Of a DNA stretch of 64,000 bases, positions 3,641 to 15,577 are shown one piece after another; position 1 is the first letter of the stretch, and each line of letters opens with the position of its first letter. Below the pieces are notes generated by a model that saw only the letters and a list, made by a program, of their open reading frames with translations, was not told the DNA's origin and searched no databases. The stretch is from assembly GCF_000348785.1 (NCBI RefSeq), contig NC_020520.1, forward strand, positions 3,410,001-3,474,000, read 5' to 3'. Source of the DNA: Ilumatobacter coccineus YM16-304 (GTDB taxonomy: Bacteria; Actinomycetota; Acidimicrobiia; Acidimicrobiales; Ilumatobacteraceae). Position numbers and translations under genes: made by a program.

Positions 3641-4960
3641 TCAGGCGGCGCGGGTGATCGACACGTTCAGTCCGGTCAAACCGCGCAACATGAAGCTCGG
3701 GAAGTACATGAACTCGTTGTCGTCGGCCAGGGTGATCGACTCCAAGCGGCGGCCGAGCTGCTCGAACACGATCGTCATCTCGAGACGGCTCAACGGGGCA
3801 CCGAGACAGAAGTGGATGCCCTTGCCGAACGCCAGGTGCTTCTTCATGAGGCCCTCGCGGTCGGGATCGAACGCGTCGGGATCGGGGAACACCTCGGGGT
3901 CGCGGTTGGCCGCGGCGAACATCACGACGAGGCGTGCGCCCTTCGGCACCGGCACACCGTCGATCTCGGTGTCGGCCGTGACCACACGAAACATGCCTTG
4001 GGTGGGCGTCGACAGGCGCAGCACCTCCTCGACCACGGTCGGGGCGTAGCCCGCCGGATCGGCACGGAGCTTCGCCCACGTGTCGGGGTGCTCGGCCAGC
4101 AGCCGCACGCCTTCGGTGAGCGCCTTCGTGGTGGTCTCGTTGCCGGCAACGAGCAGCTGCGACACGATCGACAACATCTCCGACATCGTCAGCTCGCGCT
4201 TGCCCTCGTCGTCGACGTCGAGCCCCTTCTCGGCGTCGCCAGGGTCGGCTTCGATACGAGACTGCACCAGGTCGCTCATGAGGTCGCCGATCGGCTCGAC
4301 GCGGCGCCGTTCGAGCTGCTCGGCGAAGTAGTGCTGGAACTCGACGGTGCCGCGCAGCGCTTCGAGACGGCGCTCGTCGCTCGGGTTCGACCCGATCGGG
4401 GCGATGAAGTCGTCGCTCCAACGCTTGAAGTCGGCCATCATGTCGACCGGCACGTTGAGCACCGTGGCGATCGCTTCGATCGGCACCGGGACGTTGAGCT
4501 GGGTGACCGCGTCGAACACCTCACCGTCGGCGGGCAGCTCGTCGATGAGCCGGTTGACGATCTCGGTCACCGGTTCGCGCAGCGTCGCCATCGTCTTGGG
4601 TGTGAAGTAGGTGGCGACCGTGCCACGGAACCGCGTGTGGTGCGGTGGATCGATCGTGAGCATCGTCGGCACCGGCGGCCACCCCTCGGCCATGATCTCC
4701 TTCATCTTCTCGACCAGTTCTTTGTCGGGCGACATGCCGGCGGTCGAGAAGTTGGACGAGAAGGTCGCGGTGTCGCGAAGGATCGGCACGACGAGGTCGT
4801 GGCGCGTGACCATGTAGATGTCGGTGCCGGGAACCTGGAACACGGGGGTGGTCTCCCGCATCTTGGCGTAGTACTGGTGCGGACACTGCTGCGTTGCTGG
4901 GTCGAACGGGTTGAAACCCTCCAGCGACACGTCTTCGGCGACATTCTCGACATCGGTCAT
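3641..4960 (-). CDS. cytochrome P450
   Basis: A 439-residue soluble class I bacterial P450 monooxygenase. Visible motifs are the I-helix oxygen-binding segment AGNETTTK, the K-helix ExxR in EEVLRL, and the haem loop FGKGIHFCLGAPLSR with the thiolate Cys near residue 385. The start is the ATG at 4960 (MTDVENVAED), just before conserved sequence; a longer in-frame extension back to 5155 overlaps the divergent phoD gene and is unlikely. The substrate is unknown. It heads a minus-strand group with the hydroxyacyl-CoA dehydrogenase and the B12 domain, so an acyl or sterol-derived substrate is plausible. Redox partners are not encoded nearby. Confidence 0.9.
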   Translation of the reverse strand: MTDVENVAEDVSLEGFNPFDPATQQCPHQYYAKMRETTPVFQVPGTDIYMVTRHDLVVPILRDTATFSSNFSTAGMSPDKELVEKMKEIMAEGWPPVPTMLTIDPPHHTRFRGTVATYFTPKTMATLREPVTEIVNRLIDELPADGEVFDAVTQLNVPVPIEAIATVLNVPVDMMADFKRWSDDFIAPIGSNPSDERRLEALRGTVEFQHYFAEQLERRRVEPIGDLMSDLVQSRIEADPGDAEKGLDVDDEGKRELTMSEMLSIVSQLLVAGNETTTKALTEGVRLLAEHPDTWAKLRADPAGYAPTVVEEVLRLSTPTQGMFRVVTADTEIDGVPVPKGARLVVMFAAANRDPEVFPDPDAFDPDREGLMKKHLAFGKGIHFCLGAPLSRLEMTIVFEQLGRRLESITLADDNEFMYFPSFMLRGLTGLNVSITRAA

Positions 4961-10736: not shown

Positions 10737-10847
10737 GCTGAGCCGGGATCAGATTGTTCGAGTGCAAGGAAGCATGAGGCCGAGTTGCCTTCGGGCAACG
10801 AGCGCTGAGGGCTGACGCAGCAATCGGGCAATCTGGCCCGGCTCAGC
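10737..10847 (+). repeat. structured intergenic element with UUCG hairpin
   Basis: A 111-bp region whose ends pair perfectly over 11 bp (GCTGAGCCGGG / CCCGGCTCAGC) and then, after a small bulge, over 7 bp (CAGATTG / CAATCTG). In the centre is GTTGCC-TTCG-GGCAAC, a stem capped by a UUCG tetraloop on the plus strand. Interior words (AAGG, ACGAGC, ACGCAGC) occur in the same order as in the two elements at 6805 and 9308. It overlaps the stop codon of the pgi fusion at 10843. No ORF is supported here; the rest of the 10592-10736 gap probably holds the promoter of the APH-fold gene. Confidence 0.65.
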
Positions 10848-13044
10848 GGTGGGAGCGGTAGTGGGCGATGAGTGCGTTGGTGGAGCTGTCGTGATCGTCG
10901 GGTGACGGTTCACCGACGAGTTCGGGGGTGATCTGGTTGGCGAGTTCCTTGCCCAGCTCGACGCCCCACTGGTCGTAGCTGTTCACCCCCCAGATCGTGC
11001 CCTGCACGTGCACGATGTGTTCGTACAGCGCGATGAGTTGTCCGAGCACCGACGGGGTGAGCCGTTCGGCGAGGATCACCGTGTTGGGTCGGTTGCCCTC
11101 GAAGTTGCGGTGCGGTTCGGCGTCGTTCGTCCGCCCGAAGGCCAGCGCTTCCGACTGGGCGAACAGGTTGGCCATCAACAGATCGTGGTGCTCCTGGTAC
11201 GGATGCTCGGCCTTGACGAAGCCGATGAAGTCGCACGGCACGACCCGGGTTCCCTGATGGAGCAGTTGGTAGAAGGCGTGCTGGCCGTTGGTGCCGGGCT
11301 CCCCCCAGATGATCGGTCCGGTGTGGTGCTGCACTCGCCGACCGTCGAGGTCGACCGACTTGCCGTTCGACTCCATGTCGAGCTGCTGCAGGTACGCCGG
11401 GAAGCGCGCAAGATCGTTGCTGTACGGCAGTACCGCCTTGGTGTCGTAGCCGAGCCCGTTCGCCCACCACACGCCGAGCAGCGCCATGAGCACCGGGACG
11501 TTCTCGGCGAACGGTGCGGTGCGGAAGTGCTCGTCGATCTGGTGGAAGCCGGCGAGGAAGTCGTGGAATGCGTCGGGTCCGATCGCGATCATCAGCGACA
11601 GCCCGATCGCCGAGTCGACCGAGTAGCGGCCGCCGACCCAGTCCCAGAACCCGAACATGTTGGCGGTGTCGATCCCGAAGTCGGCGACCCGTTCGGCGTT
11701 GGTCGAGACCGCGACGAAGTGATCGGCGACGGCTGCCTCGCCGAGTGCGTCGACGAGCCACGTTCGAGCGGTCCGCGCGTTGGTGAGCGTCTCGATGGTG
11801 CCGAACGTCTTCGACGCGACGATGAACAGCGTCGATGCCGGGTCGGAGTCGGCGAGCACGGCGTCGATGTCGGCACCGTCGACGTTGGACACGAACGAAC
11901 AGCGAATCCGCTCGTGGCGGAACGGGCGCAACGCCTGATAGGCCATCGCCGGGCCGAGGTCGGATCCGCCGATGCCGATGTTGACGACGTGCGTGATCGT
12001 GTCGTCGGCGCGCACCCGGTCGGAGAACGCGGCCATCTTCTCGAGCACCTCGTGGACGTCGGGCACGACGTCGACACCGTCGATCATGAACGTCGAGCCC
12101 TTCGGCATGCGCAGCGCGACGTGAGCGGCGGCGCGATCTTCGAAGACGTTGACGTGCTCACCGGCGAACATGGCGTCACGACGAACGGCCACGCCACTCG
12201 TCTCGGCGAGCGAGAGCAGCGACGCGATCACGGTGTCGTCGATCGGGTTCTTCGACCAGTCGACACGCAGGTCGGCCGCGGTGGTGGTGTATCGCTCGGC
12301 TCGACCGGGGTCGTCGGCGAAGAGCTCTCGGAGATGAGCGGGGCGAGGCAGGTCGGAGAGGTCGTCGAGCGTGGTCATCGTCGCTTGACCGTAGCCATCG
12401 AGCAGCGACGCCGCGGCGTGATCGAGGAAGACGATCGTGTCGTCGCCGGCGACCCGCGAGATCGGGAGCGACGAGTCGCCGTCGATCAGCCATCGCCGAA
12501 CCACGTCGGCCTTCCCGGCCCCGGTCACGAGCACGACGCGCAACCGAGCGCCGTTGACCGCTTCGGGCAGCAACGTCATCCGGCGTCGACCGTTGAACTC
12601 GCCGACGCACGCCACGGCTCCATCGTCGTCGACGATGCCGGCATCGGGATGCGGCGCCGGCGGCCACGATGCCGTGTGCCCATCGTCGCCGAGCCCGAGG
12701 TGCACCACGTCGAGCCGCTCCGGGAGCCTGGTCGCGTACGCCGCCGCAGCGGCGTCGAGGTCGCCATCGGTCACCGGCATCAACACCGCTGTGAGATCGA
12801 GGGCCGCCAACTGCTCCGCGTTGCGGTCGGCATCGCCGTCGGGGGCGACCCGCTCGTCGACCTGGAAGATCGAGACTCGATCGGTGTCGATGGCGTCGAC
12901 GAGCCCGGCCAGGAGCCCCGGCGCTGTCGAGCCGCCGCTCACCGCAAGCGACGCGACTCCCGACGCATCGATCGCCGAGCGAAGTCGCAGCGCAATCGCT
13001 GCTGCCGCATCGTGCGCCGGATCATCGGAGATCACCACATCCAC
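10843..13044 (-). CDS. 6-phosphogluconolactonase / glucose-6-phosphate isomerase fusion
   Basis: One frame of 733 residues joins two sugar-phosphate enzymes. Residues 1 to about 220 are a 6-phosphogluconolactonase: [11 protein letters not shown] near the start and [12 protein letters not shown], the family's GxxxDGHTAS motif. Residues about 223-733 are glucose-6-phosphate isomerase: [11 protein letters not shown], the first signature around [12 protein letters not shown] and the second around [12 protein letters not shown]. The second domain begins at an internal Met (12378), which could also be an independent start. The GTG at 13044 is taken as start; GTGs at 13038 and 13035 are alternatives. 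Both products act on glucose-6-phosphate branches (pentose phosphate and glycolysis). The fusion is unusual; no stop or frame break is seen at the junction. Confidence 0.88.
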
Positions 13045-13061
13045 CCCATCCAGCGTACGAC

Positions 13062-13119
13062 ACCCGGGTGTTTCCGTCACCCGGGTGTTCAGCGACCCAC
13101 AGGGGCCGTCGAAACACCC
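13062..13119 (+). repeat. left copy of inverted repeat bracketing the AbiEi-like gene
   Basis: A 58-bp segment just upstream of the lactonase-isomerase start. It matches the reverse complement of 14161-14218 at 48 of 58 positions by eye. It contains two CACCCGGGTGTT words and an imperfect GTGTT...AACAC hairpin around GCGACCCACAGG. Confidence 0.75.
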
Positions 13120-13227
13120 GACACCGGGCTCGCGCGCCGTTCCGCGCGCCATGGCGTGGTTCGACGATTCGTCGGTAGCTTGCGACCCCCGACTCCCTCT
13201 CCGCCAACATTCGCGAAGGGGACCACC

Positions 13228-14157
13228 ATGGCCGACCTCACGTCCGCCGCACAGCGGCTCGCCGCCCGACAGCACGGCGTCATCAGCATTCGACAACTCG
13301 TCGCGAGCGGCGTCGGTCGAAAGACCATCAGGCGCCTCGACCGCGCCGAAGTCCTCATTGCCGACTACAAGAGCGTGTACCGACTGGGCTCGTCACCGCG
13401 CACGCTCGAGCAACGCTGCGTCGAGCTCAGCCTCGCTCACCCGTCAGCGTTCGTCACCGGGCCAACGGCAGGCACCCTCATGGGCCTGCGAAAGATGCCT
13501 CGACGCTCGCCGATCACCATGTCGGCCAAGCACCCGCTCCACGTCGAGCACGCAGGCGTTCGGTTTCGCCGCAGTACCAAGGTGTCGCCTGCGGATGTCA
13601 TCGTTCGAAACGATGGCATCCGCATCGCTCACCCGGTCCGGCTGGCGTTCGATCTGGCTGGTTGGCTCGACGACCACGCCCACCGCTCGGTCGTCGATCA
13701 ACTGTTGCACGAGCACGACGTCACCGTCGGCGAACTCGTCCGCGTCGGATCGCGGCTCTTCCATCCCGCTCGCCGCGGCTCAGATCGGTTCGTCAACACG
13801 CTGAACACGCTGACGGAGACGCCCACCGAATCCGACGCCGAACGACGCGTCGCCGACGCGCTACGCCGACGAGGTGTGCCGGTCGAGACCAATGCCCAGT
13901 GGCTCACCTTCCCCGACGGGCAGCGGGCTCGACTCGACCTGAGCGTGCCGAGCGCCCGCTGGGGCGTGGAGGTCGACGTCCATCCCAGCCACCTCGGGGT
14001 GATCGGATCGACCAACGACAAACGGCGAGACCGTCGAGCTCGCCTCATCGGCTGGCAGATCGAACGGATCACCGGTCTCGACCTGCTCGACCTCGAGGCA
14101 ACGTGCGACGAATTGTCAGCCCTGTACTCCGTCCGGTGCCGTGAGGTCGCCGCCTGA
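13228..14157 (+). CDS. AbiEi-like winged-helix protein with a DUF559/Vsr-like C-terminus
   Basis: A 309-residue protein. Residues about 1-55 resemble the N-terminal domain of AbiEi-family antitoxins: a helix-turn-helix in [17 protein letters not shown] and [13 protein letters not shown], then VYRLG. The C-terminal 110 residues look like a DUF559/Vsr-type nuclease fold, with [25 protein letters not shown] followed by [18 protein letters not shown]. The acidic pair and GW-R-T pattern fit that family. Actinomycetes carry many such genes without an AbiEii toxin, and none is adjacent here. The start ATG 13228 follows a weak GAAGGGG site. It is bracketed by 58-bp inverted repeats, which raises possible mobility or a flanking-hairpin arrangement. 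Confidence 0.75.
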
Positions 14158-14160
14158 CCG

Positions 14161-14218
14161 GGGTGTTTGGCGACCCCCTGTGGGTCGCCAAACACCCGGG
14201 TGATCGAAACACCCGAGT
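14161..14218 (-). repeat. right copy of inverted repeat, with 16-bp hairpin
   Basis: Starts 3 bp after the stop of the AbiEi-like gene and mirrors 13062-13119. Its inner part (14161-14176 with 14182-14197) is a perfect 16-bp stem around a 5-nt loop, strong enough to act as a terminator for the gene. Confidence 0.75.
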
Positions 14219-14238
14219 GGGGAGGCTTGGCGTAACGT

Positions 14239-15174
14239 GTGCTGGTGACGACGGTTTCAGCGGCGCCTGCGGCGGCGGACACATCGACCGGCCGAGGGGT
14301 GCAGATCGGGTTCACCGCCTACCTGATCTGGGGACTGCTCACCATCTACTGGAAGCAGCTCAGCGCGTTCGACGCACTCGAGTTGATCGGCTGGCGCATG
14401 CTGTTCGCCGGCATCGTCATGGCGATCATCACCACGGCCCGAGGCATGTGGCCCACGATCCTCGAAGCCTTCCGTGACATCGTGCGCCTCCGCCGGCTCA
14501 CCGCCGCCGCACTGCTGCTCACCGCCAACTGGGGCAGCTACGTCTGGGCAGTCGTCAACGACCGGGTCATCGAGACGGCGCTCGGCTACTTCATGGCCCC
14601 ACTCGGCACCATGGCGGTCGGTGTGTTCGTCCTGAAGGAGACGCCCACCGCCGCGCAGCGACTCGCCTTCGCGCTCGCCGCGGTCGCCGTGGCCGCGCTC
14701 ACCGTGTCGTACGGTCGCCCACCGTGGATCGCAATGCTCATCGCGACCACGTGGACCCTCTACGGCCTGTCGAAGCGCCGTATCCGACTCGACGCGGTCA
14801 ACAGCCTCGCCGGTGAGACGTTCGTGCTCGTGGTCCCCGCCGCGATCCTGCTCGTTGCCATCAGCGGTCGGGCCGACAGCGCCGTGTCGTCGGCCGACTT
14901 CGGCGACTGGGGCTTCCTGATCGGAACGGGAGTGGTCACCGCGATACCCCTGATGTTGTTCGCGTCGGCCGCTCAATCGATCCCGTTCACGCTGCTCGGC
15001 CCACTCAACCTGATCGTGCCCGTCATCAACTTCGCGCTCGGATGGGCGTTCTACGACGAAGACATGCCGCTCGACCGGGTGATCGGATTCGCCTTCGTGT
15101 GGGCCGCGCTGATCGTGGTGATGTGGGACCGGATCCGCATCGCTCGCGCCGCTCGCAAACCAGCGACCGCCTGA
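14239..15174 (+). CDS. rarD: RarD-type EamA family transporter
   Basis: A 311-residue inner-membrane protein of the drug/metabolite transporter superfamily with about ten predicted membrane segments. The NWGSYVWAVVNDRVIETALGY region after the third segment matches RarD, as does the IWGLLTIYWKQL opening. RarD proteins are predicted permeases; the transported compound is not established. The start is either GTG 14239 or GTG 14245, both close to the transmembrane start, with no clear ribosome site. A small lipoprotein gene begins 15 bp after the stop on the same strand. Confidence 0.85.
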   Translation: MLVTTVSAAPAAADTSTGRGVQIGFTAYLIWGLLTIYWKQLSAFDALELIGWRMLFAGIVMAIITTARGMWPTILEAFRDIVRLRRLTAAALLLTANWGSYVWAVVNDRVIETALGYFMAPLGTMAVGVFVLKETPTAAQRLAFALAAVAVAALTVSYGRPPWIAMLIATTWTLYGLSKRRIRLDAVNSLAGETFVLVVPAAILLVAISGRADSAVSSADFGDWGFLIGTGVVTAIPLMLFASAAQSIPFTLLGPLNLIVPVINFALGWAFYDEDMPLDRVIGFAFVWAALIVVMWDRIRIARAARKPATA

Positions 15175-15188
15175 GTACTCTCGGGAAG

Positions 15189-15473
15189 ATGCGCCGTCTC
15201 CTCCTCGCCGTGCCCGCCGCTCTTCTCGTCGCCGCGTGCACGACCGACGCCTCCGACTTCAAGGGCCAGACGGAGGACTTCATCAACGACGACAGCGACG
15301 TCGAAGCGCTCTTCGACGGTGCCGACATCTCCGACGCGTCGTGCACCTCGCCCGACAGCACCGACGTCGGCAGCGAGTACACGTGCACCGCCGAAGCCGA
15401 GGGGATCGGCACGATCCGGTTCGATGCCGTGATCGACGCCGAGAACTCGTTCTCGGTCACCCCGGCGCTCTGA
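15189..15473 (+). CDS. small DUF4333-like lipoprotein
   Basis: A 94-residue exported lipoprotein. The signal is MRRLLLAVPAALLVAAC, with the lipid-anchored Cys at 17. The mature part has a Cys pair (DASCTSP and YTCTAEAEG) and the short beta-rich pattern of DUF4333 domains, common in actinomycete envelope proteins. ATG 15189 is the only start giving a signal peptide. It lies between rarD and another small lipoprotein. Function is unknown; a disulfide-bonded surface domain is the most that can be inferred. Confidence 0.7.
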   Translation: MRRLLLAVPAALLVAACTTDASDFKGQTEDFINDDSDVEALFDGADISDASCTSPDSTDVGSEYTCTAEAEGIGTIRFDAVIDAENSFSVTPAL

Positions 15474-15577
15474 GCCACGTCGACGTGACGTTCGTCGCGC
15501 GCGCGTAATTACCGGCGTCGGATCGCCCGCGTCTGCCAAGGTGTCGCCCGAAACGAACCTCACAAGGAGACATGGAC

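Follow-up and report, generated by a model that had tools for sequence, protein, structure and literature searches.

A palindrome-bracketed AbiEi-like nuclease gene of Ilumatobacter coccineus as a candidate REP/RAYT-like selfish element

In REP/RAYT systems, or REPtrons, the gene for a DNA-processing enzyme is flanked by palindromic repeats that are also found alone between other genes. The DNA-binding antitoxin AbiEi of the AbiE type IV toxin–antitoxin systems recognises a pair of 23-bp inverted repeats with 3 bp between them (about 49 bp in all), as reported in PMC7319586, and the EDxHD homing endonuclease I-Bth0305I acts as a dimer on a site of nearly 60 bp, as given in PMC3943268. The MTES_1575 domain (PF18741) is described in PMC3710099 as a Vsr-type REase domain. 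Here we describe a locus of Ilumatobacter coccineus YM16-304 that resembles a REPtron in its arrangement, in that palindromic units flank a gene and recur without it elsewhere in the genome, and whose protein joins an AbiEi-like part to a Vsr/EDxHD-type nuclease in the predicted model. The locus lies in a window of 64,000 nucleotides (positions 3410001–3474000 of a genome that is a single contig of 4,830,181 bases), and all positions below are those of the window unless the genome is named.

A single-gene cassette and an empty site in congeners

The longest inverted pair within positions 12000–15500 has arms of 59 nt (13061–13119 and 14161–14219) that are 83% complementary, with 1041 nt between them, and encloses a single gene of 930 bp, or 309 codons, as the original prediction held (Table 1). 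A DNA search of the genome matched the right arm to the left arm with E = 1.4e-10, so the pairing is not due to chance; the length of the inverted pair and the DNA folding z scores (right unit −5.73, left unit −2.88) likewise rule out a chance repeat. Each unit is built from a box, CGGGTGTTT with some changes, that occurs twice at a 17-bp step and is followed by a core ending in an inverted box. The right unit is itself a hairpin, again as predicted, with a 16-bp stem (14161–14176 and 14182–14197) and a 5-nt loop by reading (20 nt, 95%, in the inverted-repeat search). Pfam shows no transposase domain in the enclosed gene, in agreement with the predicted absence of a transposase; a target-site duplication at the outer ends, the presence of which had been proposed as a check, was not seen when the ends were read by eye. 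No Rfam match reached the gathering score in four loci, and a simple consensus scan gave no intrinsic terminator within 12900–14400.

Table 1 Features of the cassette, its neighbours and the further places of its palindromic unit
Feature	Position	Strand	Basis or detail
Left neighbour, 6-phosphogluconolactonase/glucosamine isomerase-like domain fused to phosphoglucose isomerase (PGL/PGI)	10843..13035	-	Pfam; 13035 is the start used
Left palindromic unit, 60 bp	13061..13120	+	Covariance-model match 3423061–3423120 of the genome, 81.9 bits
Two direct boxes of the left unit	13061..13073 and 13078..13090		CACCCGGGTGTTT and near-copy; then core and inverted box ending AAACACCC
309-aa gene, AbiEi-like part and Vsr/EDxHD-type nuclease	13228..14157	+	Open reading frame, domain and fold comparison
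Right palindromic unit, 60 bp, inverted relative to left	14160..14219	-	Covariance model, 83.6 bits
Right neighbour, EamA transporter	14239..15174	+	Pfam
Further places of the unit	231 kb, 3407 kb (a pair of units that start about 120 bp from one another), 3930 kb and 4171 kb of the genome		

We looked for the corresponding site in the nine other genomes of the genus, most of which are incomplete drafts. An orthologue of the EamA gene was found in eight of them. In seven of these eight congeners it lies directly beside a divergently oriented PGL/PGI gene, and no homologue of the enclosed gene (hereafter, family gene) separates the two, an empty site of the kind that the original prediction had suggested seeking in relatives. 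The eighth congener (L078) has neither PGL/PGI nor a family gene on the stretch examined, so that none of the eight EamA loci has a family gene. The intergenic gap of I. coccineus without the cassette would measure about 44 bp (13036–13060 plus 14220–14238); in the congeners the aligned parts of the two neighbour proteins are separated by 119–224 bp, unaligned first codons included. The intergenic DNA of the congeners is too diverged to give a base-exact insertion boundary. By parsimony, the 1.16-kb segment 13061–14219 is best read as an inserted cassette, with insertion preferred over loss.

The enclosed protein

In the predicted model, residues 1–196 (about 13228–13815) are AbiEi-like and residues 202–305 (about 13831–14142) form a Vsr/EDxHD-type nuclease, and the prediction of an AbiEi-like protein with a nuclease was right. 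Among Pfam families (E ≤ 0.1) only AbiEi_4 (26.5 bits; cut-off 25) and MTES_1575 (19.1 bits, below the 38.2 cut-off) were matched, and NCBIfam gave no match for the window protein. The AlphaFold2 model, made from 16 aligned sequences (mean pLDDT 89.7, pTM 0.64), resembles Streptococcus agalactiae AbiEi (6y8q; Z 13.4, 4.3 Å over 183 residues) over residues 1–196 and Rv2827c (1zel; Z 9.3) over residues 1–198; residues 202–305 resemble the catalytic domain of I-Bth0305I (3r3p; Z 13.0, 2.4 Å over 96 residues), and the nuclease part also resembles NGO0050 (Z 11.7) and Vsr (1cw0; Z 10.8). In the Foldseek ranking AbiEi came out on top (E 1.1e-6) and 3r3p in sixth place (E 4.7e-3), and the Z scores are a second look at the Foldseek matches that excludes nothing. 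E205, D237, E248, H255, D264 and R267 are invariant in the 16 sequences. In a larger alignment of 108 sequences, neither D237 nor E248 is ever replaced in the 106 that are ungapped there, and H255 is present in 104 of 106; E205, D237, H255 and D264 are nearly invariant and, by our own reading, answer the letters E, D, H and D of the EDxHD motif.

A role in defence or self-marking, in which the nuclease would be held at chromosomal palindromes and would act on invading DNA or spare DNA that carries them, is consistent with the match of PADLOC AbiEi models to the protein (best E 4.4e-10) and with the presence of several paralogues per genome. Neither of the adjacent genes encodes an AbiEii toxin, however, which leaves the earlier suggestion of a defence-type gene without support from a partner gene, and solo palindromes in other intergenic gaps would call for a further explanation. 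We regard this role as improbable. Spread on plasmids or phages was considered separately and rejected: tblastn with the window protein matched nothing at E ≤ 1e-5 in 72,556 plasmid records or in 50,697 phage records, a result that speaks neither for nor against defence.

Dispersed palindromes and the layout of the family

A DNA search of the genome with positions 13000–14300 gave, besides the query itself, matches only inside its two repeat parts. A covariance model of six copies found the unit at the cassette and at at least four further places in the genome without the gene; the search returned 13 matches in all, as palindromes match both strands, and scored 150 of 964 candidates, so that weaker copies may be missing. 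The original prediction had named a search for other copies as its check and had counted repeats at many unrelated gene ends against itself; such copies do occur, at four places, but they fit a dispersed, REP-like family instead. At E ≤ 0.001 the covariance model found no unit in the other nine genomes of the genus, mostly incomplete drafts, and the exact hairpin pattern occurs in one of the ten genus genomes, namely its own. An exact 20-base pattern of the core hairpin had no match in collections of genome contigs or viral contigs, from which the source genome is possibly absent. With a looser two-box pattern, 22 stretches of 8 kb or less were matched, none of them with a family gene at E ≤ 1e-3, and among three that were read only L063, from uncultured Ilumatobacter FRAM18, has a comparable four-box palindrome (positions 170–270), with the same CGGGTGTTTC box around another centre and no family gene in 6.6 kb. 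As a side observation, in L061 of Paractinoplanes ovalisporus a 17-bp unit with GGAAACACCCGCC in it is repeated in tandem at 3767–3860, beside other tandem units.

Dispersal was tested for three repeat families, those of the window, of L011 and of L147. Paralogue L011, at 1746 kb of the same genome (G000), has other palindromes, two units on each side by reading. Its upstream flank gave 24 matches in its own genome, four weak ones in congener G001 and none in the remaining eight genomes of the genus; nine stretches carry 12 dispersed clusters of the L011 repeat, and a tenth stretch is the cassette. Close orthologues of its HAD neighbour are found in seven of the nine other genus genomes, and in all seven the AMP-ligase and HAD genes are adjacent, with 44–140 bp between aligned ends and no family gene, which is a second empty site. 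The L147 repeat, in genome G375 from another family of the order, has 20 matches in that genome, cassette included, with 12 dispersed clusters in the stretches examined and one weak match in one of three congeners. Twenty of the 24 dispersed clusters of the L011 and L147 repeats overlap no gene called by a composition-based gene finder. A further family gene of the I. coccineus genome, L131 (3669100), has a weaker flanking inverted repeat (score 39) and a downstream gene that appears GTPase-like by eye.

We then compared the flanks of family genes across Actinomycetota. Among the matches listed, with at most a few scored per genome, 134 of 396 genomes of a phylum sample hold the family at E ≤ 1e-10. 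The set was assembled from 109 loci: besides the window gene itself, two paralogues, 17 loci from the genus, 29 returned by the phylum search and 60 picked from the list of that search, with no set rule but in part with a preference for complete genomes and for the family of Ilumatobacter. L046 was dropped, as it held no gene by our criteria, and six of the remaining 108 genes had too little flank, which left 102 for comparison. Matching upstream and downstream repeats, inverted or direct, reached a score of at least 35 in 63 of 102 genes as against 1.15% of 4000 mismatched flank pairs; at 50 or more the figures were 50 of 102 and 0.05%, and at 60 or more 40 of 102 and none. Two of 33 other genes of the window scored 35–36 and none higher, and the congener loci of EamA and HAD orthologues (15 taken, 14 scored, one too short) reached 31 at most. 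Repeats scoring at least 35 were present in 2 of 3 loci from the own genome, 10 of 11 from the genus, 17 of 29 from the phylum search and 34 of 59 picked loci, so picking did not raise the share. Arranged by origin, the counts were 13 of 15 for the own genome and genus, 14 of 16 for other genera of the family and 36 of 71 for other families.

The layout is not uniform. Among the 63 genes the inverted orientation is clearly stronger in 24, the direct one in 27, and the two are alike in 12. This mixed orientation counts against a selfish system, and so do other observations: 39 of the 102 genes have no repeat at a score of 35 or more (outside the family of Ilumatobacter only 36 of 71 have one), D237, E248 and H255 are intact also in 37 family genes without repeats, neither a target-site duplication nor a base-exact boundary was seen at the cassette, some paralogues have partly similar flanks and related proteins rarely share theirs, most congener genomes are incomplete, and the I. 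coccineus genome has Y1_Tnp genes that might move repeats. In 16 loci that were read, many units are palindromes of about 46–60 bp, one to three per side, and some loci are less clear. Upstream palindromes scoring at least 40 were found in 40 of 108 family genes versus 3 of 31 controls, and downstream ones in 25 of 102 versus 7 of 31, with no clear excess. A palindrome alone thus does not separate the family from controls; matching repeats on both sides do. At L151 and L153 (genome G130) the matching repeats overlap the gene start and lie right behind the stop, unlike palindromic arrays; L115 (genome G040, 2902107) has a flanking direct repeat with a weak score of 38 and, downstream, a possibly IS-like reading frame by eye.

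These data also bear on whether the palindromes are only binding sites, that is, operator arrays through which the AbiEi-like part would repress its own gene together with a few others, with an unrelated role for the nuclease. Units do lie upstream of the family gene, and AbiEi and Rv2827c are reported in PMC7319586 to bind inverted repeats in their own promoters. Against this reading, matching units are found downstream too, in the same 63 of 102 genes. At 22 of the 24 dispersed clusters a gene 3′ end lies on at least one side, two of these far away, although most intergenic gaps would have one as well and the excess over them is small. Gene and repeats are, moreover, jointly missing at the two congener places, with four weak matches to the L011 repeat elsewhere in G001. 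On balance we think operator arrays unlikely, though somewhat less so than defence.

Paralogues mostly carry different repeats. For the five paralogues of G375, the upstream and downstream flanks of the same gene scored 64–219 and flanks of different genes 28–40, with one pair at 59; cross scores were 23–28 in G000, 25–36 in G100 and 23–34 in G186. Partly similar flanks were found for L102/L149 (59) and, in G130, for L150/L152 (197), L152/L153 (48) and L152/L154 (41). An own repeat at 35 or more is lacking for one of the four G000 genes, for two of the five in G186 and for three of the five in G130. A tight co-inheritance of repeat and protein was not found: with pairs that have similar neighbours left out, flank sequence is common (score at least 45) to 2 of 13 protein pairs at least 60% identical, and to 0 of 39 pairs that are 50–60% identical. 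Since few related pairs share flanks, the repeats turn over fast, and we do not claim strict co-evolution.

The palindromes might instead be miniature elements of an unrelated transposase, from a resident IS or a Y1/RAYT enzyme, with the nuclease gene as a passenger. The I. coccineus genome does have four Y1_Tnp genes over the family cut-off (at 3742074, 3756929, 2039255 and 3329753, the first three being L231, L233 and L234) and a fifth match below it; G040 has one such gene, and G375 and G025 have no match at E ≤ 0.001. However, L231, L233 and L234 carry neither the window nor the L011 repeat (scores 19–22 against full matches of 120 and 102), two of the three have inverted repeats of their own (scored in 1200-base flanks around the domain and so not on the scale of the family flank scores), and the L147 repeat is dispersed in G375, where Y1_Tnp has no match at that threshold. 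Among the copies of the window unit located (150 of 964 candidates scored), only those of the cassette lie 0.5–5 kb from each other in the manner of IS ends, and one common enzyme would leave the mostly different repeats of paralogues in one genome unexplained. We hold a foreign transposase to be about as improbable as defence. The repeats of the three Y1 loci, inverted in two (scores 65 and 61) and direct in one (134), are unrelated to the window repeat, and these loci are possibly RAYT-like units in their own right.

A possible mode of spread and comparison with known systems

We consider it probable that the cassette belongs to a selfish system that resembles REP/RAYT but is based on an unrelated nuclease. 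The two folds are fused next to palindromes of about the length of the AbiEi and I-Bth0305I sites, which points to the palindrome as the likely target of the window protein. From these features we infer binding, cutting and a nuclease-driven spread of the palindrome: a protein dimer would bind the palindrome flanking its own gene and cut or nick the DNA there, and repair or strand exchange could then copy the palindrome, alone or with the gene, to further intergenic sites. In this scheme a solo palindrome would count as a non-autonomous copy and the cassette with its gene as the autonomous one. The original prediction of a mobile unit with terminal inverted repeats survives as to the cassette and its mobility, given the empty site in seven of eight congeners; the term non-autonomous is probably wrong, because the protein has predicted AbiEi and Vsr/EDxHD nuclease folds and, of 102 homologues, 63 lie between repeats that are particular to them. 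The enclosed gene is probably better read as an autonomous partner.

The same layout in many related genes of Actinomycetota suggests an unrecognised kind of selfish DNA. The broader proposal, which we judge to be evenly poised, is that of an independent class of chromosomal selfish elements across the phylum, in which AbiEi–EDxHD nucleases each maintain and spread their own palindrome of about 50 bp, with several pairs per genome and a fast-changing pair specificity; this would be a second solution to the RAYT/REP role in which a homing-type nuclease replaces HUH chemistry. If it is correct, many apparently stray genes with antitoxin or endonuclease domains would turn out to be selfish elements of one class, and the intergenic palindromes of Actinomycetota could be assigned to an owner. 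The origin and spread of extragenic palindromes could then be studied in a second, non-HUH case, and nature would offer a set of nuclease–target pairs with long recognition sites. The top-ranked matches of broad literature queries, which included few subscription papers and preprints, contained no description of the family with flanking or dispersed palindromes; absence from print is thereby unproved.

Among known systems, insertion sequences of the DDE type and their MITEs are marked by a target-site duplication at the outer ends and a transposase between them, and neither was seen at the window cassette (ends by eye, enclosed gene by Pfam); a full-length relative with the same ends elsewhere in the genome could take the place of the enclosed transposase, and among the 150 of 964 candidates scored no other pair of units is spaced 0.5–5 kb. 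The locus is like AbiE in the AbiEi-fold part of its predicted model and in the palindromic DNA upstream, and unlike it in that the protein carries a nuclease domain and that neither adjacent gene, PGL/PGI or EamA, is an AbiEii nucleotidyltransferase toxin. Its nuclease part has a likeness to the MTES_1575 domain, albeit at a bit score well below the cut-off; that domain is described in a large protein fused to HEPN, and the part of PMC3710099 that deals with it makes no mention of repeats. With I-Bth0305I it shares, in the predicted model, the catalytic fold, the conserved E, D, H and D residues and a separate DNA-binding part, but the window gene is not inside an intron, is bracketed by intact palindromes and has no match in the phage records at E ≤ 1e-5. 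In homing, an allele that lacks the gene is cut and the gene is then copied there; alleles of that kind, the empty sites, exist in congeners for both the window cassette and L011. REP/RAYT is the closest in arrangement. Two inverted flanking palindromes, a RAYT trait according to PMC2817692, are present at the window cassette, though the inverted orientation is clearly stronger in only 24 of the 63 family genes, and dispersal between other genes was found for all three repeat families tested. A GT(A/G)G head next to the palindrome, also given as a RAYT trait in PMC2817692, was not seen in the six aligned window units; the family units measure about 46–76 bp, often several per side by reading, as compared with 20–40 bp for REPs in the account of PMC3733652; and the enzyme is AbiEi-like with a Vsr/EDxHD-type nuclease instead of a Y1 (HUH) domain, PF01797 giving no match at E ≤ 0.1. 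The cassette fails the definition of a RAYT: it would work like a REPtron and is not one.
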